Positions 494 to 15,001 of a DNA stretch of 64,000 bases are shown in pieces; the first letter of the stretch is position 1; every line of letters starts with the position of its first letter. Below the pieces are notes generated by a model. It had not been told where the DNA came from, did not search any database, and saw only the letters and a list, made by a program, of their open reading frames with translations. The DNA is taken from contig NZ_CP042430.1 in the NCBI RefSeq assembly GCF_007970665.1, positions 62,001 through 126,000 of the forward strand, in the 5' to 3' direction. This DNA is from Baekduia soli. Its GTDB lineage: Bacteria > Actinomycetota > Thermoleophilia > Solirubrobacterales > Solirubrobacteraceae. The position numbers and the translations under genes were made by a program.

Positions 494-1762
494 TCACCCC
501 GGAGCGGCGGTCTCGGCCGCGGCGACCGCAGCGAGCGCGAGCGTGCGCTCCATCTCGTTGCGGACGATCGACAGGCCCTCGTCGACTCCCATGCCCGGCT
601 TGGCCAGCATCTGGTCGGCGCCCGCGCCGAGCGCGACGTGCACCGACACCTGCGCGGCGCGCTCGGTCTCGGTGCACGAGCCGCCGAGCAGCGCGGTCAC
701 GCCGTGGCGGCGGCAGTCGAGGATCGCCTCGACGGCGTGGTGCAGCGAGCCGAGGTCGGGCGCCTTGACCTGGATCACGTCGGCGGCGCCGGCCCGGGTG
801 AACGCCCGGACGTCCGCCGCGCTGTTGGCCCACTCGTCGGCGACGAGCTGCACCCCGGCGCCCCGGGCGGCGAGGATGCGCCGCAGCTGCGCCATCGCCG
901 CGATCTGACCGTCGCGCGAGCCGGCGTCCACCGGATGCTCGACGCGCAGGGCCAGCGGCGCGGCCTCGGCGCCCATGGCGCAGACGATGTCGGCGACCGC
1001 CTCGAGGTCGCCCCGCGCGACCTCGCCGAGCAACCCGTACACGTCGAAGTGCAGGACCGGCGCGTAGGCCGCCGAGGGGCGCAGCTGCTGCACCCGCTCG
1101 CGCACCCAGCGCACGTAGGCGATGAGGTCGGCGCCACCGGCGCCGACGAGGGAGGGCTCGTTGATGAGCCCGTGCGGCAGCGCGTCGACGCCCTTGAGGA
1201 TCATCTTGTCCACGTTGACCCGGCGCTCCTCGCCGCTCTGCGCGTAGACGGGGATCCGCCGCAACGGCCCGTCCAGCCCCCACTCGGCGCGCACGTGCTC
1301 GGCCATCGTCACGCCCGCGCCGTGCGCCGCCGCGTCGAGCAGCGCCTGCGACAGCCCGTAGGTCGCCGCCGTCCCCACATCGTCGATCGCCGCCGCGAGC
1401 CGGTCGAGCCGCCGTGCGGCGGCGCGGAAGCCGTCGACGGCCGTGCCGCGCAGCTCCGGCGCCACCGCGCCGGCGATCACGGCGGCGAGCGCCTGGGCAC
1501 GCAGGCGCGGCTCGCGCCCGCCGACGCCGCTGTACTGGACGCTGACGCAGTCGCCGTGGGCCACGTGCCCGTCGCTGAGGACGAGCAGCACCGAGACGGC
1601 CTCGGCCGGAGCTCGGATCGCGTCGGCGCCGGGCGTGACGGCCGGGCCGCGGTAGGCCAGGCCGTCGCGCGGCGCGCCGCCCTTGATCGCGGCCTGGTCG
1701 TCGGCGAAGAACCCTCCGGTGGCCGGCACGGCGAGGACGTCGGTGATGGTGAGCCCAGGCAT
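494..1762 (-). CDS. mal: Methylaspartate ammonia-lyase
   Basis: The product (422 aa, normal family length) should catalyse reversible deamination of L-threo-3-methylaspartate to mesaconate, a step of the methylaspartate routes of glutamate breakdown. It belongs to the enolase superfamily. Visible metal ligands are Asp240 (HFDVYG), Glu275 (VEHPV) and Asp309 (ADEW). Gln331 and Lys333 in QVKAPDLG match the catalytic Gln/Lys pair known from the clostridial enzyme with a constant offset of two residues. The YAQSGEER and NVDKMILKG segments are also family signatures. No glutamate mutase genes lie nearby, so the physiological pathway is open; some homologues act on other 3-substituted aspartates. 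Confidence 0.9.
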   Translation of the reverse strand: MPGLTITDVLAVPATGGFFADDQAAIKGGAPRDGLAYRGPAVTPGADAIRAPAEAVSVLLVLSDGHVAHGDCVSVQYSGVGGREPRLRAQALAAVIAGAVAPELRGTAVDGFRAAARRLDRLAAAIDDVGTAATYGLSQALLDAAAHGAGVTMAEHVRAEWGLDGPLRRIPVYAQSGEERRVNVDKMILKGVDALPHGLINEPSLVGAGGADLIAYVRWVRERVQQLRPSAAYAPVLHFDVYGLLGEVARGDLEAVADIVCAMGAEAAPLALRVEHPVDAGSRDGQIAAMAQLRRILAARGAGVQLVADEWANSAADVRAFTRAGAADVIQVKAPDLGSLHHAVEAILDCRRHGVTALLGGSCTETERAAQVSVHVALGAGADQMLAKPGMGVDEGLSIVRNEMERTLALAAVAAAETAAPG

Positions 1763-3463: not shown

Positions 3464-4541
3464 TGACGTGCCTCGGGACGTTCCGAACGTCTGAGGGCTG
3501 AAGTTGAGGCATCCGGGCTGAGACAGAGGCTGTGGGTCTTCTCAAGGATCCAACGGCCTCGGAGGTCATCAGCCCGGATGCAGTGCAAGCGTAGGTGGCT
3601 GCCCAGCTGGCAGCGTGTCGAGCTGGTTGATTGGTGTCTTGGCGAGGGACTTCCTCGACGCCAGGCAGCGGCCCGTCGGCGGGTGAGCGTGTCGACGGTG
3701 CAGTACTGGATCGACCGGTACCGCAACGCCTCAGACGCCGAGCGAGCGTCGGGCGCGTGGGCGCAGGATCGACCCTCGACGCCGCATCGCCAGCCGACGC
3801 GGTCCAGCGACGAGCTGCACGACCGTGTCTGCCAGGCGCGGACGCGGACGGGCTGGGGGCCGCGCCTGATCGCCTCCGAGCTCGGCATCGCGCACGCGAC
3901 GGTCTCGCGCTGTCTGAAGCGGCGCGGCATGTCGCGCCAGCCGCCGGCGCCCCGAGAGGCGGTGCAGCGCTTTGAGTGGCCGTGCCCTGGGGCGTTGATC
4001 CAAAACGACGTCAAGCGTTTCGCGCGGTTCTCCTCACCCGGCCATGCCGTCACCGGCAACCGTCACCGCACGGGCGCCGAGAAGCGCCAGCGTGTCGGCT
4101 ACGAGTTCGCCCACAGCGCGATCGACGACCACAGCCGCCTGGCCTACACCGAGCTGCACCGCGACGAGAAGGCCGCCACCGTCATCGGCTTCACCGAGCG
4201 GGCGATCGCGTTCTTCGCTGCGCACGGCATCATCATCGAGCGCTGGCAGACCGACAACGCCTGGACCTACACCCACAACAAGGCGCTGGCCGCCCTGTTT
4301 GACAGCCACGGCATCCGGCATCGCACGATCGCGCCCCGCACGCCGCGCCACAACGGCAAGGTCGAGCGCTACCAGCAGACCCTCAAACGCGAATGGGGCC
4401 TGGGACAGCGCTACCGCTCAAGCGACGCCAGAGCCGCAGCGCTGCCACACTGGCTGCACCACTACAACAACGAGCGGAACCACAGCTCGCTCGGCAACCG
4501 GCCGCCCATCACCCGCGTTCGGAACGACCTGAGGCAGAACA
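3464..4541 (+). mobile_element. IS481-family insertion sequence, complete
   Basis: The element is 1078 bp with one transposase gene. Terminal inverted repeats begin with TG at both ends. The inner 20 bp match 18/20 (left 3470-3489, GCCTCGGGACGTTCCGAACG; right 4516-4535, read on the minus strand as GCCTCAGGTCGTTCCGAACG). The flanks are GCTAGG on the left (3458-3463) and GCTAGC on the right (4542-4547). This agrees with the NCTAGN target and 6-bp duplication known for Bordetella IS481, with one mismatched base. The element sits between the FN3 gene stop codon and the hairpin at 4561-4595. Confidence 0.9.
3509..3581 (+). promoter_or_regulatory. Inverted repeat sequestering the transposase start codon
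   Basis: A perfect 13-bp inverted repeat pairs GCATCCGGGCTGA (3509-3521) with TCAGCCCGGATGC (3569-3581). The transposase ATG (3578-3580) lies inside the 3' arm, and the GGAGG-like stretch at 3561-3565 lies in the loop. In RNA entering from outside the element, this hairpin would hide the start codon. That is a known way for IS elements to avoid expression by read-through transcription. Confidence 0.6.
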
Positions 4542-4546
4542 GCTAG
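3578..4546 (+). CDS. IS481-family DDE transposase
   Basis: The 322-residue protein cuts and joins the IS ends. An N-terminal helix-turn-helix region (about residues 25-50, RRQAAARRRVSVSTVQYW) and a second helical DNA-binding part precede an integrase-core (rve) domain. The acidic triad is Asp144 (QNDVKRF), Asp226 (WQTDNAW) and Glu263 (GKVERYQ). It appears intact. Its last sense codon begins at the last base of the element, and the TAG stop (4544-4546) comes from the duplicated CTAG target. The reading frame is therefore closed only by the insertion site. Confidence 0.93.
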   Translation: MQCKRRWLPSWQRVELVDWCLGEGLPRRQAAARRRVSVSTVQYWIDRYRNASDAERASGAWAQDRPSTPHRQPTRSSDELHDRVCQARTRTGWGPRLIASELGIAHATVSRCLKRRGMSRQPPAPREAVQRFEWPCPGALIQNDVKRFARFSSPGHAVTGNRHRTGAEKRQRVGYEFAHSAIDDHSRLAYTELHRDEKAATVIGFTERAIAFFAAHGIIIERWQTDNAWTYTHNKALAALFDSHGIRHRTIAPRTPRHNGKVERYQQTLKREWGLGQRYRSSDARAAALPHWLHHYNNERNHSSLGNRPPITRVRNDLRQNS

Positions 4547-4652: not shown

Positions 4653-5018
4653 GTGCACGCGTTCGACGTCCTCGGCGACCCCGTCCGTCGTCGGATCCTC
4701 ACCCTCCTGGCCGACGGTGAGCGACCCGCCGGCGCCATCGGCGCCGTCGTCCAGCGGGAGTTCGGCATCACGCAGCCCGCGGTGTCGCGCCAGCTGCGCG
4801 TGTTGCGCGAGAACGGCTTCGCGACCGTGCGCGCCCAGGGCACGCAACGGCTGTACGCGGTGGACCCCGCTCCGCTGCAGGCCGTCGATGAGTGGCTCGC
4901 GCCCTACCGGCGGTTCTGGGAGGGCCGGCTGGACGCACTGGGCACCGAGCTGGCGCGCGGCCGGCGCACGGCCCGCGCCGGTCGACCAACGATCCCCGCC
5001 AGGAAGGACCGCCCGTGA
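4653..5018 (+). CDS. ArsR-family winged-helix transcriptional regulator
   Basis: This 121-residue regulator starts at GTG 4653 and opens with FDVLGDPVRRRILTLLADGE, the first helices of the ArsR fold. The recognition-helix region is ITQPAVSRQLRVLRENG, and the wing is VRAQGTQRLYAVD. No metal-binding cysteines are present. This places it with the non-metal ArsR proteins commonly paired with an SRPBCC/AHSA1 gene. It overlaps the next gene (GTGA at 5015-5018), so the two are translationally coupled. It probably represses its own operon through the palindrome just upstream. Confidence 0.88.
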   Translation: MHAFDVLGDPVRRRILTLLADGERPAGAIGAVVQREFGITQPAVSRQLRVLRENGFATVRAQGTQRLYAVDPAPLQAVDEWLAPYRRFWEGRLDALGTELARGRRTARAGRPTIPARKDRP

Positions 5019-5599
5019 GCGATCGCGACGACGGGCTCGCCGAGCCCACCCCCCGGCTGCTGCACCGACGCATCGCCGCGGGCGACGCGCGCGTGGCGGT
5101 CTTCGACCGCGTCTACGCCGCCCCGATCGACGACGTCTGGGACGCCTGCACCAATCCCGACCGGCTCGCCCGCTGGTACGTGCCGGTCCGCGGCGACCTG
5201 CGCCTCGGGGGCCGCTTCGAGCAGGCCATGATGGGCTCCGGCGAGATCGTCGAGTGCGAGCCGCCCCGCCACCTGCGGGTGTCGCTGGGCGGCGGGGCCG
5301 ACGAGATCGAGCTGCGCCTGACAGAGGCCGGCCCGGGCGCGACCGCCCTGGAGCTGCAGCACGCCACGACGATCGCCGAGCACACGATCGGCGGGCAGGT
5401 CTTCGACGCGATCTTCTGCATGGGCGGTGGCTACTACCCGCGGCTCCTCGCGCTGGACCGCCACCTGCGCCGGGCGCTCCCCGACGGCTACGACCCGCTC
5501 GTCATGCACGAGAACCCCGCGATGCGGCCGGCCATCGAGCGCGGCAGCAGCGCGATGGCGGCGCTGTTGGCCGCGACCGCGTCGCGCGCCCGCGACTGA
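5015..5599 (+). CDS. SRPBCC/AHSA1-type START-like domain protein
   Basis: This 194-residue protein starts at GTG 5015 behind AGGAAGGA (5001-5008). Residues about 25-160 carry the AHSA1/SRPBCC pattern: FDRVYAAPIDDVWDACTNPDRLARWYVP, then GGRFEQAMMGSGEIVECEPPRHL. The family forms a hydrophobic pocket and usually binds or senses small ligands. Arrangement with an ArsR regulator as the first gene is common in actinobacteria, and its biochemical role is generally unknown. The C-terminal extension (VMHENPAMRPAIERGSSAM) is outside the core domain. Confidence 0.8.
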   Translation: MSDRDDGLAEPTPRLLHRRIAAGDARVAVFDRVYAAPIDDVWDACTNPDRLARWYVPVRGDLRLGGRFEQAMMGSGEIVECEPPRHLRVSLGGGADEIELRLTEAGPGATALELQHATTIAEHTIGGQVFDAIFCMGGGYYPRLLALDRHLRRALPDGYDPLVMHENPAMRPAIERGSSAMAALLAATASRARD

Positions 5600-5670: not shown

Positions 5671-5688
5671 CCCGTCGAGCTCGACGGG
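5671..5688. promoter_or_regulatory. Perfect 18-bp palindrome upstream of the amidohydrolase operon
   Basis: CCCGTCGAGCTCGACGGG is identical to its reverse complement. It lies about 70 bp after the SRPBCC stop and about 147 bp before the first operon gene. It has no loop, which suits a protein-binding operator better than a terminator. The gene-free stretch 5600-5834 otherwise holds only the GAAGGAGA ribosome-binding site just before ATG 5835. Confidence 0.4.
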
Positions 5689-5834: not shown

Positions 5835-6958
5835 ATGACGTCATTGATCGACAGCACGGCCTCGCGCCCCGAGGGTGGGGCGCGGACGCTCATCATCGAC
5901 ACGGATACGCACAACTTCCCACTGCCGCCCGACATCGCGCCGTACCTGTCCGGCACCTGGGCGCGGTACCTCGAGACCTTCGGGCTGCGCACCGTCGGCG
6001 AGCACGGGATCCCGCGCGGCCGCCTCATGGCGTCGCGCGCCGACGCCTGGTCGCCGCGGGGCCGGCCGCCCGGCAACGACGCCGAGTACTTCGTCGAGCA
6101 GCTCCTGGACCGCTACGACGTGCACGCGGCGATCCTCAACAACTCGGCGACGTTCTTCACCGGCATGGTCGGCGGCAACCAGCCCTACGCGTTCACCGAG
6201 GCCTTCGTCGCCGCGGTCAACGACTGGGTCGTCGCCGAGTGGCTGTCGGTCGACGAGCGGCTGTACTCGTCGATCACGGTCGCCGTCGAGGATCCGAAGG
6301 CGACCGTCGCCGAGATCGAGCGCTTCGGCGCCGACGAGCGCTTCGTCCACCTCGGCCTGCCGTTCTCCACCCGCAACCCCATGGGGGCGCGGAAGTACTG
6401 GGACATGTTCGAGGCGGCATCGCACTTCGGCCTGCCGCTCTCGCTCCACACCGGCAACGCGCCGATGCCCAGCACGGGATCGGGCTGGCCGAGCTTCTAC
6501 TTCGAGGACCACATGGATCGACCGCCGTCCGTCCTGGCCCAGCTCGCGAGCCTCATCTGCGAGGGCGTCTTCGACCGCTTCCCCGACCTCAAGGTCGTCG
6601 TCCAGGAGGGCGGCTGGACCTGGGCCCCGTCCTACAGCTGGCTGCTGGACAGCGCCTGGCGCCGGCTGCGCGAGGAGGAGCCCTACCCGTTCGACCGCGC
6701 CCCGTCGGAGTACCTGCGCGACCACGTCTGGTTCACGACCCAGCCGATGGAGGAGACGCGCCGGCCCCACGAGTTCGACGAGGTCCTGGCCATGCTCGCC
6801 AAGGACCGGCTCATGTTCGCCAGCGACTACCCGCACTGGGACTTCGACCCGCCCGACCGCGCGCTGCCCACGACGCTGGCGCCCGAGCTGCGCGAGGCGG
6901 TGCTCGGGGCACGGCCGCCGCGCTGTACCCGCGGCTGGCCGAGGGGTTCGTCGCCTGA
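5835..6958 (+). CDS. Amidohydrolase-2 family metal-dependent hydrolase, 3' end frameshifted
   Basis: About 374 residues of a TIM-barrel amidohydrolase (ACMSD/LigW-like clan, often decarboxylases or C-C hydrolases). The DTDTHNFP segment near residue 20 supplies the DxDxH-like metal motif. SLHTGNAP provides the barrel histidine and FASDYPHWD the conserved C-terminal Asp. The frame as read runs past 6904 into unrelated sequence. Inserting one G in the run at about 6904-6908 restores GGTAAALYPRLAEGFVA and the stop at 6956-6958, which overlaps the next ATG. This is either a real frameshift or a sequence error. First gene of a five-gene operon. Confidence 0.8.
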
Positions 6959-8064
6959 TGCCGGCCGTCGCCCCCGACCGCCCCGACCTGCTGGGCACGC
7001 CGTGGACCGGCGCGGTCATCGACGCCGACCTGCACGTCAACCCGCCGTCGCTGGAGGCCATCCGGCCCTACCTGGCCCGCCAGTGGCTGGAGTGGATCGA
7101 CGAGACCGGGTTCACCGCGCCGGCGTCGCTGGTGACGAAGTACCCGCCGGGCAGCAGCGTGACGTGCGCGGCGCGCTGGCGACCGGCCGACGGCCGCACC
7201 CCGGCCAGCGACCTCGGCCTCCTGCAGGAGCACGTGCTCGACCCGCTCGGCGTCGAGCGCGCGGTCATCAGCTGCTACTGGGGCCAGGACGCCATCCGCA
7301 ACCCGGACTTCGCCGCCGCGCTGGCCCGGGCGATGAACGACTGGCTCGTCGACGAGTGGCTGGACCGCGACCCGCGCCTGCGCGCGACCGCCGTCGTCCC
7401 GTCGCACAACCCCGCCGATGCGGCGGCCGAGATCGACCGGGTCGGAGGGCATCCCGGGTTCGTGCAGGTGTTCCTGCCGCTGTGGTCGCCCAAGTTGTAC
7501 GGCAACCGCATCTGGCTGCCGCTCTTCGAGGCGATCGAGCGTCATGACCTCGTCGCCGGCCTGCACTACGGCGGCTCGTCGGAGGGCGCGACGACCGGCA
7601 CGGGGTGGGCGACGTGGTTCTTGGAGGAGTACGTCAGCGCGCTGGGCATGTGCTGGCAGCAGCTGACGAGCATGATCTGCGAGGGGCTCTTCCAGCGCTA
7701 CCCGACGCTGCGCGTCTCGCTGCTGGAGACCGGCTTCACGTGGCTGGCCCCGTTCCTCTGGCGGCTGGACAAGGAGTGGAAGGGGCTGCGGCGCGAGGTG
7801 CCCTGGGTCGACCGGCTGCCCTCCGACATCTTCCGCGAGCACGTCAAGGTCGCCGTCCAGCCCATCGGGGCCGGCCCGTCGCCCGACGACCTCGCCCGCC
7901 ACGTGGAGTGGCTGGGCTCCGACGAGATCCTCATGTTCGGCTCCGACTACCCCCACGGGCACGAGCACCCCGTCGCGACGCTGCTCGACGTGCTGCCCGA
8001 GGCGGCGCGCGCCAAGGTCATGGCCGGCAACGCCCGGGCCCACTACAAGCTCGGCGACGGCTGA
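6958..8064 (+). CDS. Amidohydrolase-2 family metal-dependent hydrolase (second copy)
   Basis: This 368-residue protein is a paralogue of the preceding one and is intact. It starts at ATG 6958, overlapping the upstream TGA (TGATG). The metal motif appears as IDADLHVNPP near residue 22. GLHYGGSSEG contributes the barrel histidine, and MFGSDYPHGHEHP the late Asp. Both copies share the layout LICEG(V/L)F-R(F/Y)P-L and a YCEEL-like helix, suggesting gene duplication and perhaps a heteromer or successive steps on related substrates. No close functional assignment is possible from sequence alone. Confidence 0.85.
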   Translation: MPAVAPDRPDLLGTPWTGAVIDADLHVNPPSLEAIRPYLARQWLEWIDETGFTAPASLVTKYPPGSSVTCAARWRPADGRTPASDLGLLQEHVLDPLGVERAVISCYWGQDAIRNPDFAAALARAMNDWLVDEWLDRDPRLRATAVVPSHNPADAAAEIDRVGGHPGFVQVFLPLWSPKLYGNRIWLPLFEAIERHDLVAGLHYGGSSEGATTGTGWATWFLEEYVSALGMCWQQLTSMICEGLFQRYPTLRVSLLETGFTWLAPFLWRLDKEWKGLRREVPWVDRLPSDIFREHVKVAVQPIGAGPSPDDLARHVEWLGSDEILMFGSDYPHGHEHPVATLLDVLPEAARAKVMAGNARAHYKLGDG

Positions 8065-8065
8065 G

Positions 8066-8602
8066 ATGGGCCGCCACGTCGTCGCCAAGGCGTCCGACCT
8101 GCCCGAGGGCGGGCGGATCATCGTCGAGGTCCAGGGCCGCTCCATCGGGGTGTTCCACATCAACGGGCGCTTCCACGCGCTGCTGAACCAGTGCCCGCAC
8201 ATGGGCGCCGAGCTGTGTCGCGGGTCGATCCTGGGGCGGCTGGACTCCACCGTGCCCGGCGAGTTCCGCTACGACGAGGAGCACGCGCTGTTGCGCTGCC
8301 CGTGGCACGGCTGGGAGTACGACATCGAGACCGGGCAGTCCTACTTCGACTCGCGGGCCCGGCCCTACCCCGTCGACGTGCGCGCCGGCGGCGAGGTGGC
8401 CCCGGAGGTGCAGACCGGCGACGTCGGGCGCCCGGCGGCGGGCACGGCCACCGAGTCGGTCGTGGGCCTGGCCGCGTCCAAGCTGCGGCCGGGACCCTAC
8501 GTGGCTGAGAGCTTCCCGATCGCGATCGAGGACGACTACATCGTGGTCACGATGCCGGGGCGGGCGCGGCCCGCGCCCCGGCCGGCCGAGGAGGGCGGAT
8601 GA
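8066..8602 (+). CDS. Rieske [2Fe-2S] ferredoxin-like protein
   Basis: This 178-residue soluble protein carries the two Rieske cluster boxes: CPHMG near residue 45 and CPWHG near residue 78, supplying the Cys-His pairs for a [2Fe-2S] cluster. The spacing includes an acidic insert (LDSTVPGEFRYDEEH). It is larger than a plain ferredoxin but lacks the catalytic non-heme iron domain of ring-hydroxylating oxygenases. It is therefore a likely electron carrier, possibly for a partner encoded elsewhere. It starts one base after the previous stop, and its own stop overlaps the next ATG. Confidence 0.88.
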   Translation: MGRHVVAKASDLPEGGRIIVEVQGRSIGVFHINGRFHALLNQCPHMGAELCRGSILGRLDSTVPGEFRYDEEHALLRCPWHGWEYDIETGQSYFDSRARPYPVDVRAGGEVAPEVQTGDVGRPAAGTATESVVGLAASKLRPGPYVAESFPIAIEDDYIVVTMPGRARPAPRPAEEGG

Positions 8603-9450
8603 TCCTCGAGCTGGCGCCGGGGCGGCTGGCCGCGATCATCAACAGCTATGCCATTGACGGGCGCGTGAGCTGGCATCCGCCCGCCGCACGCGGCGTGGGC
8701 TTCATGCACGTCTACGTCCTGCGCGACGGGAACTCGGTCGTGATCGTCGACACCGGGCTGGGCGCGCATCGCGAGCAGGTCCTCGCCGGGCTGGCCGAGC
8801 TCACCGGCCCCGGCGACGACCTCACCGTCATCGCCCTGCGCACGCAGGAGTTCGACGCGATGTGCAACCTCCTGCCGATCCTCGAGCGGTTCGCCGTGCG
8901 CGAGGTCTGCGGGCAGCACCCGGACCCGCTGGGCTGGGGCGACTTCCACGTCGACCTGCGCCTGGCCGGCCGCGACGCGCTCGTGCGCGGCGACGCGACG
9001 ACGCCCCTCACGGGCCTGAGCACCCGCGTGCTGCACGAGCACGAGGAGGTCGTCCTGGGCGCCAGGACGCTCGAGGTCTTCCGGCCGGCGATCCGGCTGC
9101 TGCAGACGCACTGGATCTACGACGCAGCCACGCGCACGCTGCTGACCTCGGACATGTTCACCCATGCCCGCGCACGCGGCGGCCAGGACGCGGCGGTCAT
9201 CACCGACGACAACGACGGCGCGACCGTCGAGTCCGTGCAGGAGCACCTGCTCGGCGGCCGCTACTGGTGGCTGGCCCAGTCGCACGCCGACGAGCTGCGC
9301 ACGTGGCTGGCCGGCGTGTTCGCCGAGCGTGACGTCGAGACCGTGGCCCCGGCCTACGGCGGCATCCTGCGCGGCCGCGACGTCGTCGCCCGCCACGTCG
9401 GGCTCCTCGACGAGGCCATCGCCCGGTGCGCCGCGATGATCCCCGCCTGA
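8599..9450 (+). CDS. Metallo-beta-lactamase-fold protein with degenerate metal site
   Basis: The 283-residue protein starts at ATG 8599 (ATGA overlap with the Rieske gene). The fold is clear from VVIVDTGLGAHREQVLAGL and LLTSDMFTH. The usual HxHxDH (or HxExDH of diiron flavoproteins) is replaced by TQEFDA near residue 80, so Glu and Asp remain while both histidines are lost. The late VAPGHG loop reads VAPAYGG, losing a further ligand. It may be a structural or regulatory partner of the next gene, or bind metal differently. Confidence 0.75.
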   Translation: MILELAPGRLAAIINSYAIDGRVSWHPPAARGVGFMHVYVLRDGNSVVIVDTGLGAHREQVLAGLAELTGPGDDLTVIALRTQEFDAMCNLLPILERFAVREVCGQHPDPLGWGDFHVDLRLAGRDALVRGDATTPLTGLSTRVLHEHEEVVLGARTLEVFRPAIRLLQTHWIYDAATRTLLTSDMFTHARARGGQDAAVITDDNDGATVESVQEHLLGGRYWWLAQSHADELRTWLAGVFAERDVETVAPAYGGILRGRDVVARHVGLLDEAIARCAAMIPA

Positions 9451-9459
9451 GGCCCGCCG

Positions 9460-10245
9460 ATGACGCGCCGATCCCTGCCCCGTGAGATCGCCCCCGGCCT
9501 GCACTGGCTCGGCGACTGCATCCACGTGACCTACGCCGGCACGACCCTGCACAGCCTCGACTCGCTCTTCGTGCTGCAGGGCAGCGAGGCCGCGGTGATC
9601 GTCGATGCGGGCCTGCCGAACGACCTCGACGTCATCGAGCGCCAGCTCGACGAGGTCGAGCGGTCCGGCGGGCCGCCGGTGCGCTACGTGTGGCCCACCC
9701 ATCAGGAGACGCCGCACGCCGGCGGCGTGGCGCGCTGGCTGGACCGCTACCCCGACGCCGTGCTGTGCGGCGACGTGCGCGACTACCACCTGATCTTCCC
9801 CGAGCTCGCCGCCCGCCTCATGCCGCTGGAGATCGGCGAGCGGATCAGCCTCGGCGACAGCGAGGTCGTGGCCGTCGCGCCGGTCTTCTACGACCTGCCC
9901 GGCACGCAATGGCTCTTCGACACGCGCCGCAGAGCGCTCTTCTCCGGCGACGGCTTCGCCTACGCGCACTACCACCTCGCCGAGCAGTGCAGCCTGGTCG
10001 CCGAGGAGGCCGACGACCTCGACATCCCCGAGATGACCGGGCTGTTCAGCGAGGCGTCGCTGCGCTGGTCGAAGTACCGGGACATGGAGCCGCTGACCCG
10101 GGAGCTCCAGGCGCTCGTCGCCGACCTCGGGGCCGAGGTCGTCGCGCCCGGCCACGGGCTCCCGATCCTCGACCCCGTGACCACGTTCCCGCGGGTGATC
10201 GAGGGCCTGCTCCTGGCCCACAAGGTCGACCGCGGCACCGGCTGA
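9460..10245 (+). CDS. Metallo-beta-lactamase-fold hydrolase/oxygen-sensor-like protein
   Basis: The 261-residue protein is the last gene of the operon, beginning 9 bases after the previous stop. The metal box reads THQETPH near residue 76 (HxExxH, like the diiron flavodiiron/ODP type but with Pro in place of Asp). The later ligands SGDGFA and APGHGLP are intact. It is therefore the better-preserved partner of the preceding degenerate paralogue. Substrate unknown; glyoxalase-II-like hydrolysis or diiron-based oxygen chemistry are both possible. Confidence 0.78.
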   Translation: MTRRSLPREIAPGLHWLGDCIHVTYAGTTLHSLDSLFVLQGSEAAVIVDAGLPNDLDVIERQLDEVERSGGPPVRYVWPTHQETPHAGGVARWLDRYPDAVLCGDVRDYHLIFPELAARLMPLEIGERISLGDSEVVAVAPVFYDLPGTQWLFDTRRRALFSGDGFAYAHYHLAEQCSLVAEEADDLDIPEMTGLFSEASLRWSKYRDMEPLTRELQALVADLGAEVVAPGHGLPILDPVTTFPRVIEGLLLAHKVDRGTG

Positions 10246-10582: not shown

Positions 10583-12013
10583 CTAGAGGTCGTAGGAGAG
10601 GCCGGCGATCCCGTTGGCCGCCATGCGGGCCTGCAGCGCGGTGAGCGCCGGGGCGGCCGGCGCCAGCGCCTCGGCAACCTTCATGGCCGACCAGACCGCT
10701 GTCTCCTGCAGGTCGCTGCCCGCCGTGTAGGTACCGCTGAAGCACAGGCCACCGCGGCCCTGGAGCGGGCGCAGCGCGCGGGCGGCCGCGACGGTCTGCG
10801 CGCTGATGAGCGGGTGCTTGAACCGCCGCTCCAGGAGGATCTCCGTCGGGTCGGCACGCCGGCGCTGGGCCCACGACTTGAACAGCTCGACCGTCCCGCC
10901 TGAGGGCAGCGGGGCGTGCAGGGCGCCGATCCACGCGCTGCCCTCGCACTCGACCCCGTCGACCCCGGCGTTGTACGCGGCCCAGTTCCAGCGCCGGGGG
11001 TGCACGTAGGCCGGGTCGCGGTGGATCAGCAGGCGCGAGTCGAAGTACTCGTAGCGGTCGAGCAGCGCGGTGACATCGCCGAACGCGCGCAACGGCCGCA
11101 GCAGCTCGCGCCCGATGCGCGGCGGCGCGTTGAGCACCACGAAGCGGTACGGGCCCTGCCGGCCGGCGGGCGTGCGCAGGACCCAGCCGTCGCCGCGCAG
11201 CGCCAGGGCCCGCACCGGCGCGTCGAGGCGGACCCTCGCGGCCGGGGCGCGGTCCAGCAGGCGCTGGAGATTTCCCTGCAGGCCGATCTTCGAGGTGTAG
11301 GTGCTCGCCCCCTTGAGGTCGGCCGGGAACGCGAGCGCGAACGTCTGCAGGATCGAGCGCGCCGATGCCCGCGCGGCATCGGCGCGCGGGGAGCCGATCG
11401 TCGCCGTGATCCACGGGAAGAGCACGTCGGCCTTGAACGCCGGCCCGAGCGGGAGGCCGGCGATCCACTCGTCGACGGTCGTCTCCCACGCCAGGCCGTC
11501 CAGCACGGCGCGCCGCGCCAGCTGCGCGAAGACGGCGAACTCGATGGCGTTCCACGGCGTCGCCAGCGGGTGGGTCGAGGTGAGCCACGGCGGGCCGCCG
11601 GCCACAGGGAACACGCAGAGGCTGCCGGGCGCCGCGTAGGTCTCCCCCGCCGACGGGTCGGCGGGGTCGTAGAGGCCGAGCTCCTCGAGCAGCGTGACGT
11701 AGAGCGGATGGGTGTCGGGGTGGAAGAACTGCGCGCCGAGATCGACGGTCACGGCCTGCGACGGATCGGACGGGTCCGCCACGACGCGCGAGTCGCAGTG
11801 CCCGCCGATCCGGGCTCGCGCCTCGAACACGTCCACCTCGTAGCTGCCGGCGAGGAGGTATGCCGCGGTCACGCCGCCGGCCCCTGCGCCGATGACGGCC
11901 ACCCGGTCGCGCCGCGTGGCCGAGGCGGGCGCGGCCAGCGTCGCGCCGGCGCCGAGCGCCGCCAGACCGGCGGCCCCCTTGAGCACCTCGCGGCGGGTCA
12001 GCGGCGTGGGCAC
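10583..12013 (-). CDS. Tat-exported FAD-dependent amine-oxidase-like oxidoreductase
   Basis: This 476-residue flavoprotein begins MPTPLTRREVLKGAAGLAAL, a twin-arginine signal peptide, so it should fold with FAD in the cytoplasm and be exported. The FAD-binding site is VAVIGAGAGGVTAAYLLAG near residue 35 with the ARIGGHCDSR motif typical of flavin amine oxidases and phytoene-desaturase-like proteins. The end of the chain (GLCFSGTYTAGSDLQETAVWSAMKVAE) forms the second FAD-contacting segment. Substrate unknown. It is divergent from the small membrane gene at 12062. Confidence 0.85.
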   Translation of the reverse strand: MPTPLTRREVLKGAAGLAALGAGATLAAPASATRRDRVAVIGAGAGGVTAAYLLAGSYEVDVFEARARIGGHCDSRVVADPSDPSQAVTVDLGAQFFHPDTHPLYVTLLEELGLYDPADPSAGETYAAPGSLCVFPVAGGPPWLTSTHPLATPWNAIEFAVFAQLARRAVLDGLAWETTVDEWIAGLPLGPAFKADVLFPWITATIGSPRADAARASARSILQTFALAFPADLKGASTYTSKIGLQGNLQRLLDRAPAARVRLDAPVRALALRGDGWVLRTPAGRQGPYRFVVLNAPPRIGRELLRPLRAFGDVTALLDRYEYFDSRLLIHRDPAYVHPRRWNWAAYNAGVDGVECEGSAWIGALHAPLPSGGTVELFKSWAQRRRADPTEILLERRFKHPLISAQTVAAARALRPLQGRGGLCFSGTYTAGSDLQETAVWSAMKVAEALAPAAPALTALQARMAANGIAGLSYDL

Positions 12014-12265: not shown

Positions 12266-12286
12266 GGGGGCTTGTTTCAAGCCCCC
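12266..12286. promoter_or_regulatory. Probable rifamycin-associated element (RAE)
   Basis: A perfect dyad GGGGCTTG-TTT-CAAGCCCC (12267-12285, one more G:C pair outside) lies about 50 bp before the rph start. Established work on actinomycete rifamycin resistance describes a conserved 19-bp inverted repeat of the form GGGGCTTG-N3-CAAG upstream of rph and other rif-inactivating genes, needed for rifamycin-induced expression. The arrangement and size match. A terminator is less likely because no U-tract follows and a CATACT -10-like box comes just after. Confidence 0.7.
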
Positions 12287-12334
12287 GGGGGTGCTGCATA
12301 CTCGCTCGCCGCAAACGACCAAGGGAGCTCCGCG

Positions 12335-15001
12335 ATGCGTGCCGAGCAGCAGTCCACAGCGGTCAGCACCAGCCATCCGATCAAGACCTTCACCTTGACC
12401 TCCGACCCCTATGTGTTGGACCTTCGCGAGATCGACGCGACGCGGGTGGCGCTCGCCGGCGGCAAGGGCGCCCACCTGGGAGCGCTGTCGCACCTGGAGG
12501 GCATCCGCGTGCCGCCCGGCTTCTGCGTGACGACCGAGGCGTTCCGGCGCGTCGTCACGCAGGCCCCATCGATCGACGGGGCGCTCGACCGGCTGTCGTG
12601 CCTGGACGCGGACGACCGCAGCGCGATCCGGGCGTTCAGCGCCGCGATCCGCCGCACGCTGCAGGACGTCGCCGTCCCGGGCGAGGTGACGGCGGCGATC
12701 ACGCTCGCGCTGGCGCGCGCGGGCGAGCGGTCCGCCTATGCCGTCCGGTCGAGCGCGACGGCCGAGGACTCGCCGACGGCCTCCTTCGCCGGCCAGCACG
12801 ACACGTACCTCAACATCGTTGGACCCGCCGCGATCCTCGAGCACGTCCGGCGGGCCTGGGCCTCGCTGTTCACCGAGCGCGCCGTGACCTACCGGATCCG
12901 CCACGGGCTCGACCACCGGACGACCCGGATGGCCGTGGTCGTCCAGCGGATGGCCGTCCCGCAGGCGGCCGGCGTCCTCTTCACCGCCGACCCGGTCACG
13001 TCCAACCGCAGGGTCGTCTCGGTCGAGGCCGCCTTCGGCCTCGGCGAGGCCGTGGTCTGCGGCCTGGTCGACAGCGACATCTACAAGGTGCGCGACGGCG
13101 CGGTCGTGGCCCGGGAGATCGGCGCCAAGCGGCTGGCCGTCCACGCGGGGGCCGCGGGCGGGACCGAGGAGCGGGCGATCGAGGCCGGGCGCCGGGCGCA
13201 GCCCGCGCTGACCGACGCGCAGGCCCTGCGGCTCGCCGCGCTCGGGCGCCGGATCGAGGCGCACTTCGGTCGCCCCCAGGACATCGAGTGGTGCCTGACC
13301 GGCGACGACGACATCGAGATCGTGCAGAGCCGGCCGATCACCACGCTGTTCCCCGTGCCCGACGCCGGCGACGACGCACGTCGCGTCTACGTCTCCGTCG
13401 GCCACGGGCAGATGATGACCGACGCCATGAGGCCGCTGGGGATCTCGCTGTACCAGCACGTGGCCCTCCCCACGATGTACGAGGCGGGCGGCCGGCTGTT
13501 CGTCGACGTCGCGCCGCGCCTGGCCTCGCCGGCCACGCGCCCGGGCGTCCTGGAGGCGCTCGGCCGGTCCGATCCGCTCGTCGGCGACGCGCTGCGGACC
13601 ATCGTCGAGCGCGGCGGCCTCCTCCCGCCGGCGCCGGAGGACGACCGCCCCGCCGGGGCCGCCGCGGGCGGCGCGCCCGTGCCGATCGCGACCGATCCGG
13701 CCGTCGTCGACGAACTCATCAGGACCAGCCGGGCGTCCGTCGCGGCGCTGGGCCGCGACATCCGGACGATGTCCGGCCCGGCGCTTCTGGACTTCATCCT
13801 CGCCGACATCCAGGAGCTGCGGCGGATCACGTTCGACTCGCGGAGCACCCAGGTCATCACGGCCGGCATGGAGGCCGCGTGGTGGCTCGACGAGCGCCTG
13901 GAGGCGTGGCTGGGCGAGAAGGGCGCGGCGGACACGCTGGCGCTCTCGGTCCCCCGGAACATCACGTCGGAGATGGGGCTGGCACTGCTGGACGTGGCCG
14001 ACGTCGTGCGCCCGCACCCCGAGGTGATGGCCTTCCTGGACGGGGTCGAGGACGACGCCTTCCTCGACGGCCTGGATGAGCTCGACGGCGGCCGGGAGGC
14101 GCGGGAGGCCATCGAGGGCTACCTCGAGCGCTACGGCATGCGCTGCGTCGGTGAGATCGACATCACCCGGCCGCGCTGGGGCGAGCGTCCCTCGGCGCTC
14201 GTGCCGATGATCCTCGGCAACGCCCGCAACGCCGAGGCGGGGGCCGGCCGGCGGCGCTTCGAGCAGGGCCGGCGGCAGGCCTGGGAGAAGGAGCAGGACG
14301 TCCTCGAGCGCCTGCGGGCCCTGCCGGGCGGCGCGGACAAGGCGCGGGAGGCCAAGCGGATGATCGACCGCGTCCGGACCTTCAGCGGGTACCGGGAGGA
14401 TCCGAAGTACTGCATCGTCAGCCGCTTCTACGTGTACAAGCAGGCGCTGATGGGCGAGGCCGGCCGCCTGGCCGCGGCCGGCGTGCTCCGCGAGCCCGAG
14501 GACGTCTTCTACCTCACGCTGCCCGAGCTCGGCGACGTCCTGCGCACCCACGCGGCGGACCACGGCCGCATCGCCGAGCGCCGCCAGGCGTTCGCCGCGC
14601 ACCAGGCCCTGACGCCGCCGCGGGTGATGACGTCGGAGGGCGAGGTCGTCACCGGGGCCTACCGGCGCGACGACGTGCCGGCCGGCGCGCTGGCCGGCCT
14701 GCCGGTCTCCGCCGGGACCGTCGAGGGACGCGCCCGCGTCATCCTGGACCTGGGCGAGGCCGAGCTCGAGCCGGGCGACATCCTGGTCACCACCGGAACG
14801 GACCCCAGCTGGTCGCCCCTGTTCGTGGCCATCACGGGGCTCGTCACGGAGGTCGGCGGCCTGATGACCCACGGCACGGTGATCGCCCGCGAGTACGGCC
14901 TGCCGGCGGTCGTCGGGGTCGAGGACGCCACCCGGCGCATCCGCGACGGGCAGCGGATCCGCGTGCACGGCACCGGCGGGTACGTGGAGCTCCTGGCGTG
15001 A
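12335..15001 (+). CDS. rph: Rifamycin-inactivating phosphotransferase
   Basis: The 888-residue enzyme should transfer the beta-phosphate of ATP to the ansa-bridge hydroxyl of rifamycins. ATG 12335 follows AAGGGAG (12321-12327). Order of domains: ATP-grasp (about 40-345, GGKGAHLGAL and VRSSATAEDSPTASFAGQ), rifamycin-binding (about 360-770, opening RVYVSVGHGQMMTD), and a swivelling His domain with the phosphorylated His near 846 in GGLMTHGTVIAREYG. It lacks the C-terminal PEP/pyruvate-binding barrel of PEP synthase, which argues against ppsA. The upstream RAE suggests rifamycin-inducible expression. Confidence 0.88.
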   Translation: MRAEQQSTAVSTSHPIKTFTLTSDPYVLDLREIDATRVALAGGKGAHLGALSHLEGIRVPPGFCVTTEAFRRVVTQAPSIDGALDRLSCLDADDRSAIRAFSAAIRRTLQDVAVPGEVTAAITLALARAGERSAYAVRSSATAEDSPTASFAGQHDTYLNIVGPAAILEHVRRAWASLFTERAVTYRIRHGLDHRTTRMAVVVQRMAVPQAAGVLFTADPVTSNRRVVSVEAAFGLGEAVVCGLVDSDIYKVRDGAVVAREIGAKRLAVHAGAAGGTEERAIEAGRRAQPALTDAQALRLAALGRRIEAHFGRPQDIEWCLTGDDDIEIVQSRPITTLFPVPDAGDDARRVYVSVGHGQMMTDAMRPLGISLYQHVALPTMYEAGGRLFVDVAPRLASPATRPGVLEALGRSDPLVGDALRTIVERGGLLPPAPEDDRPAGAAAGGAPVPIATDPAVVDELIRTSRASVAALGRDIRTMSGPALLDFILADIQELRRITFDSRSTQVITAGMEAAWWLDERLEAWLGEKGAADTLALSVPRNITSEMGLALLDVADVVRPHPEVMAFLDGVEDDAFLDGLDELDGGREAREAIEGYLERYGMRCVGEIDITRPRWGERPSALVPMILGNARNAEAGAGRRRFEQGRRQAWEKEQDVLERLRALPGGADKAREAKRMIDRVRTFSGYREDPKYCIVSRFYVYKQALMGEAGRLAAAGVLREPEDVFYLTLPELGDVLRTHAADHGRIAERRQAFAAHQALTPPRVMTSEGEVVTGAYRRDDVPAGALAGLPVSAGTVEGRARVILDLGEAELEPGDILVTTGTDPSWSPLFVAITGLVTEVGGLMTHGTVIAREYGLPAVVGVEDATRRIRDGQRIRVHGTGGYVELLA

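Follow-up and report, generated by a model that had tools for sequence, protein, structure and literature searches.

Amidohydrolase-related dinuclear oxygenases (AROs) are proteins of the PF04909 family whose dinuclear site holds Mn/Fe or Fe/Fe, and their genes usually lie beside a gene for a small Rieske protein (PMC7782822, PMC10401708, PMC10811679); such a neighbour adjoins 90% of AibH2-like genes, and apart from permeases and the Rieske protein, published surveys of ARO neighbourhoods have found few common partners (PMC10401708). Among the described systems are the paired AibH1H2-AibG-AibF, the 2-aminoisobutyrate (Aib) hydroxylase of Rhodococcus wratislaviensis (PMC7782822, PMC10401708), and SfbO with the other AROs of entries 8SM6-8SM9 (PMC10811679). 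We studied a five-gene operon of Baekduia soli in a 64,000-nucleotide stretch of contig NZ_CP042430.1 (positions 62,001 to 126,000, hereafter the window). The five coupled same-strand genes (5835-10245, +), here called genes 1 to 5, are present in the sequence as the initial annotation had claimed, and its view of them as one metabolic or redox system agrees with what looks like a single coupled unit. Altogether, the data make it likely that the operon encodes a paired ARO monooxygenase (genes 1 to 3) together with a companion flavodiiron-like pair (genes 4 and 5) working in the same pathway.

The operon is similar to the aib system in its paired PF04909 genes, the six metal ligands, the residue code at the position of AibH2 D342, the Rieske gene directly downstream and the membership of one tree clade. 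It differs from aib in the gene order, which is H2-H1 and not H1-H2, and in having two flavodiiron-like genes in place of the AibF reductase, the transporter and the Aib catabolic genes. SfbO and the other AROs of 8SM6-8SM9 have the family, the ligands and the Rieske neighbour in common with the window operon, but the paired-ARO clade does not include SfbO and 8SM7, whereas the operon is of the paired form. The earlier statement that the system had no described counterpart does not hold for genes 1 to 3, which are matched by AibH1H2 and the Rieske protein AibG (PMC7782822, PMC10401708, PMC10811679).

Genes 1 to 3 and their relation to paired AROs

Pfam analysis of the operon revealed two PF04909 (Amidohydro_2) proteins, one Rieske protein and an MBL/ODP match for gene 5; NCBIfam gave no name for genes 1, 2 and 4 and only matches below the cut-off for genes 3 and 5. 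The best PDB matches of genes 1 and 2 were AibH2 (6m1w_B, E=1.6e-66) and AibH1 (6m2i_A, E=1.7e-64), respectively, together with the related oxygenases 8SM6-8SM9. In an alignment of about 40 PF04909 proteins, all six ligands of the AibH2 dinuclear site (D25, H27, H211, E265, D337 and H340) were present in gene 1, and the six ligand letters were also found in gene 2, as is the case for AibH1. The second-shell position of AibH2 D342, whose mutation lowers AibH2 activity (PMC10401708), is occupied by Asp in gene 1 and by His in gene 2, which is the split observed between AibH2 and AibH1; the other ARO pairs, whether from the same genome, from other genomes or from plasmids, likewise combine one Asp subunit with one His or Gln subunit. 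In a maximum-likelihood tree all paired AROs formed one clade (support 98/94), within which the AibH2 side grouped with gene 1 (99/97) and the AibH1 side with gene 2 (100/99). Gene 3, adjoining gene 2, contains CPH and CPWH motifs that fit the C-x-H...C-x2-H pattern of a small Rieske ferredoxin. As judged from sequence, genes 1 to 3 are thus of a known kind, a paired AibH1H2-type ARO with its Rieske ferredoxin, and because of the D342 code and the tree clades gene 1 is probably the catalytic subunit and gene 2 the structural one.

The initial annotation had read genes 1 and 2 as two amidohydrolases and gene 3 as a Rieske carrier without an oxygenase. PF04909 does include decarboxylases, and these match both genes, only more weakly, so the two proteins could in principle be ordinary amidohydrolases or decarboxylases of the ACMSD/resorcylate decarboxylase type, with a Rieske protein serving something else. 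We consider this highly improbable, since AibH1H2 and SfbO-type AROs match better than decarboxylases by >35 orders of magnitude in E-value, and both genes agree with the AROs in dinuclear ligand set, D342 code and position in the tree. A hydrolase or decarboxylase identity was rejected on the ligand and D342 alignment and the tree: genes 1 and 2 read as monooxygenase subunits, and the supposed amidohydrolases are themselves the oxygenase that the Rieske protein appeared to lack. Given the ARO counterpart of genes 1 to 3, the decarboxylase or hydrolase assays proposed earlier would be the wrong tests to begin with.

The products of genes 1 and 2 would form an AibH1H2-type heteromer in which gene 2 acts as the structural partner, and the dinuclear (Mn/Fe or Fe/Fe) site of gene 1 would activate O2 and hydroxylate an aliphatic C-H of a small substrate, with gene 3 handing electrons to gene 1. 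The aib cluster has the NADH reductase AibF in the same operon, which is not a feature of all AROs, and no AibF-type NADH reductase was found in 5835-10245. A paralogous operon at C1:4.29 Mb of the same genome contains, in this order, an AibH2-like and an AibH1-like gene, a Rieske gene (its product is 55-57% identical to gene 3), a ferredoxin reductase gene and a gene for an FMN-dependent alpha-hydroxy-acid dehydrogenase. Its AibF-like ferredoxin reductase (C1:4290500) is the sole close match in the genome and, since there is no reductase in the window operon, would be the most likely source of the electrons for gene 3, acting in trans. Genes 4 and 5 were also considered as a substitute for the missing reductase and rejected, since flavin and NAD domains are absent from both. 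Further ARO loci of the same genome are a pair at C1:1.03 Mb, next to an M24 peptidase-like gene, and a lone AibH2-type gene at C1:0.43 Mb (L014 7770-8885, -), which has no AibH1 partner, adjoins a different PF04909 gene and lies near the C1:4.29 Mb copy in the tree.

The frame of gene 1 as given has no stop before gene 2 and is open over 5835-7547. Its expected C-terminus, GTAAALYPRLAEGFVA (ending at 6958), is found in another frame past a G-run near 6905, and this shift, which the initial annotation had overlooked, fits one missing base. The Rieske gene of the paralogous operon (L016 6472-7010, -) has a similar frame break that splits it. Two such breaks point to indel errors in this single-contig assembly, or to real decay; assembly errors are the likely explanation for both.

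Fold, metal site and distribution of genes 4 and 5

The initial annotation had described two MBL-fold proteins with ODP-like metal boxes. Both proteins (283 and 261 aa for genes 4 and 5, respectively) consist of the MBL domain only, with no C-terminal flavodoxin (FMN) domain. For gene 5 the fold assignment is confirmed by Pfam (PF00753 and PF19583, with the ODP family among the matches), whereas for gene 4 it rests on a predicted model (pLDDT 88; flavodiiron/ODP as top Foldseek matches), no Pfam match being found for this protein. The gene 5 model (pLDDT 90) has a flavodiiron-type MBL core with structural similarity Z of about 20-24 to flavodiiron proteins and to ODP, the oxygen-binding di-iron protein, reaching 23.7 for FprA, in comparison with values of 17 or less for other MBL folds; its profile matches FprA over the MBL domain with E=5.8e-20.

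The metal site is the part of the claim that stood only partially. Gene 5 has HxExPH and not HxExDH: its site, H81-x-E83-x-P85-H86, D145, D164 and H232, is invariant in 54 family members, as are His110, His170, His172, Cys20 and Cys177. In comparison with the flavodiiron ligands, Pro85 takes the place of the Asp of HxExDH and Asp145 that of the next His; His81, Glu83, His86, Asp164 and His232 are kept. The HxHxDH motif of Zn-dependent MBL hydrolases is absent, HxExPH being found in 54/54 members of the family. For gene 4 the claim of an ODP-like box failed: of the six ligands it keeps only Glu84 and Asp185, and it has invariant Arg81, Asn90 and Arg166. The two genes are distant paralogues, the gene 4 profile also picking up gene 5. 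The simplest reading is that they form a heteromer with gene 5 as the metal-bearing and gene 4 as the degenerate subunit, mirroring genes 1 and 2, and iron in gene 5 would be a sensible guess, its nearest folds in the model comparison being those of flavodiiron proteins.

With the flavodiiron proteins (FprA, 2ohh and relatives) gene 5 thus has in common the MBL core, the His-x-Glu, the bridging Asp and the last His, and it differs from them in the absence of a flavodoxin domain, the two replaced ligands and the pairing with a degenerate paralogue. ODP (6qnm, 6qrq, 6r9n) is a stand-alone flavodiiron-like MBL domain, as is gene 5. However, gene 5 has a variant site and is encoded in a pair with gene 4 among catabolic and transport genes, and ODP is tied to a chemoreceptor, none of which is present in the window operon.

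A search with the gene 5 profile gave 131 related loci in species genomes. The 80 that were retained come mainly from Alpha- and Betaproteobacteria, Nitrospinota and Actinomycetota, and other groups are represented by single contigs of metagenome-assembled genomes. Gene 4 lies directly before gene 5 in 74/80 loci, and the gap is mostly -4 to 13 bp. Short contigs or missed gene calls account for most of the exceptions, and in one of these (L053) both genes were found to be adjacent by tblastn. The pair occurs in at least three phyla, a count that leaves out Chloroflexota: the Thermoflexus contig of that phylum (L022) has the same gene layout as the betaproteobacterial contigs L023 and L024 and may be misbinned. 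In plasmids, the same six records match gene 4 and gene 5, some of them with the order reversed. A single-sequence search of genome contigs with gene 4 gave no match, while a search with the gene 5 alignment worked. No relevant description of the pair was found in the open-access literature. These data strongly support the pairing of the two genes, which make up an uncharacterised module.

The 76 operon-mate proteins of the pair include TctC (11), ABC permeases (8) and TctB (4), and assorted hydrolases, dehydrogenases and regulators are found elsewhere. Since these mates are mostly uptake systems, the context points to the catabolism of small organic compounds. At one locus (L012 10880-14457, +), the region near the pair has two neighbouring fusions of Rieske domains, one with a glutamate-synthase FMN domain and the other with a thiamine pyrophosphate (TPP) enzyme.

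Relation of the pair to AROs

Four loci other than the window have the pair at a distance of no more than about 6 kb from an ARO and a Rieske gene: L009, from the same family; L053/L162, from the same taxonomic order; L163/L167, from another actinobacterial class; and L064, from Rhodoplanes. L018, L049 and L085 also have PF04909 genes close to the pair, but without the ARO ligands, and these were excluded from this count. In L167 the genes form one directon, consisting of Rieske, a small open reading frame (ORF), ARO, a 157-aa ORF, an FAD protein, a TAXI receptor, DctM and the homologs of genes 4 and 5. Among the genomes of the phylum sample, the pair is present in three and an L009-type ARO in five, with both in two, each time within 6 kb; the genome overlap between the pair and L009-type AROs (hypergeometric P=4e-4, about 390 genomes) is only indicative, as this comparison was chosen after L009 had been seen. 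Separately, the loci L164-L171 contain a recurrent cassette of Rieske, a small ORF (about 75-125 aa) and a divergent ARO, often adjoining NMT1-type ABC or tripartite tricarboxylate (TTT) transporters and TPP enzymes. No Pfam match was obtained for the one small ORF that was tested. ARO loci of the class with a relative of gene 2 were usually accompanied by Rieske genes, with no gene 4-5 pair.

The recurrence of the pair close to ARO and Rieske genes, the resemblance of gene 5 to flavodiiron proteins and ODP above all other MBL folds, and the invariance in its family of the Glu of HxE, typical of flavodiiron sites, would be consistent with a redox di-iron partner, in which gene 5 binds or reduces O2 (or NO or peroxide) with Rieske electrons and so protects or gates the oxygenase. 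Nevertheless, this is unlikely, because two of the flavodiiron ligands are replaced in every one of the 54 gene 5 members, neither protein has a flavodoxin domain, and in most pair loci neither an ARO nor an AibG-like Rieske gene is close. A redox role of gene 5 as such is possible, given that the flavodiiron Glu is kept and the hydrolytic motif is absent, with the altered ligands and the many oxygenase-free loci weighing against it. The more specific proposal that genes 4 and 5 form a new heteromeric, flavin-free, flavodiiron-like redox enzyme working directly with AROs through shared Rieske electrons is, in our view, decidedly unlikely.

The operon could also be a chance juxtaposition of two modules, with genes 4 and 5 having no functional tie to the monooxygenase. 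In favour of this explanation are the transposase-like ORF upstream (3578-4546), the five-gene order that is unique to this genome in our surveys, and the occurrence of genes 4 and 5 mostly in other contexts. The tight coupling of genes 3, 4 and 5 (gaps of -4 and 9 bp) and the four further loci with the pair near ARO and Rieske genes, one of them a single directon, argue in the opposite direction, and we regard a chance arrangement as rather unlikely.

Several observations weigh against the reading of the operon as a monooxygenase with a companion pair in its pathway. Gene 1 carries a frame break as assembled, and the operon has no substrate-naming gene such as a transporter or a downstream dehydrogenase. 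In the samples of the class (299 genomes), family (146), order (232) and phylum (396), no genome other than that of the window had the exact five-gene order; the check suggested in the initial annotation, conservation of this order in other genomes, thus failed for the complete operon, with the two modules meeting instead at the four other loci. The L009-type AROs are distant from AibH2 (tree branch 1.84). Finally, an ARO is missing from the surroundings of most gene 4-5 loci, where transporters (TctC, TauABC/NMT1 type) and a variety of catabolic genes are found; this rules out the pair as an obligate component of the oxygenase. A paired monooxygenase with a companion flavodiiron-like pair is still the reading that we consider likely, with the substrate or the product of the monooxygenase as the most likely target of genes 4 and 5 in a shared pathway.

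Gene layout, surroundings and meaning of the locus

The genes of the operon are closely spaced: the expected stop of gene 1 and the ATG of gene 2 overlap, genes 2 and 3 are separated by 1 bp, genes 3 and 4 overlap by 4 bp, and 9 bp lie between genes 4 and 5. The 18-bp palindrome described ahead of the operon is real (CCCGTCGAGCTCGACGGG, 146 bp before the ATG) and is the sole perfect palindrome of at least 18 bp in the 64 kb; nevertheless, it is not above chance level, since a Markov model of the window gives an expected mean of 1.94. No second exact copy of it was found in the 5.2-Mb genome. A palindrome-based regulon was considered and found unsupported, given this lack of a second copy and a modest excess of sites with up to two mismatches (26 a strand vs 10 in a reversed control). 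Coordinates of these features and of neighbouring genes are collected in the table.

Table. Features of the operon and neighbouring genes in the window (positions in the window)
Feature	Position	Strand	Basis or remark
Gene 1: ARO catalytic subunit (probable), AibH2 type	5835..6958	+	PF04909; AibH2 6m1w_B; residues DHHEDH+D; AibH2 clade
Gene 2: ARO partner subunit (probable), AibH1 type	6958..8064	+	AibH1 6m2i_A; His at D342 position; AibH1 clade
Gene 3: small Rieske [2Fe-2S] ferredoxin, AibG-like (CPH...CPWH)	8066..8602	+	PF00355 E=3.3e-14; motif
Gene 4 (MBLa): degenerate flavodiiron-like MBL paralogue, probable non-catalytic partner	8599..9450	+	Model fold; ligands lost
Gene 5 (MBLb): flavodiiron-like MBL core without flavodoxin domain	9460..10245	+	PF00753, PF19583; FprA profile match; Z 23.7
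18-bp perfect palindrome 5' of operon; possible operator, unproven	5671..5688		Sequence
Methylaspartate ammonia-lyase gene	494..1762	-	Exceeds NCBIfam cut-off
Transposase-like ORF, 5' of operon	3578..4546	+	Reads as integrase type
ArsR-type regulator	4653..5018	+	Between the transposase-like ORF and the AHSA1/SRPBCC gene
AHSA1/SRPBCC protein gene	about 5015..5599	+	Just upstream of operon
Flavin amine-oxidase family gene	10583..12013	-	Pfam; convergent with operon
Rifamycin-inactivating phosphotransferase (Rph) gene	12272..15001	+	NCBIfam 1454.6 vs curated cut-off of 999 bits

Few substrates are known for the young monooxygenase family of the AROs, and the locus adds to it a candidate partner, the conserved flavodiiron-like pair. 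Within paired AROs, a simple residue code, Asp vs His or Gln at the position of AibH2 D342, separates catalytic from partner subunits. Genes annotated as two amidohydrolases, an MBL hydrolase and a hypothetical protein are probably something else.

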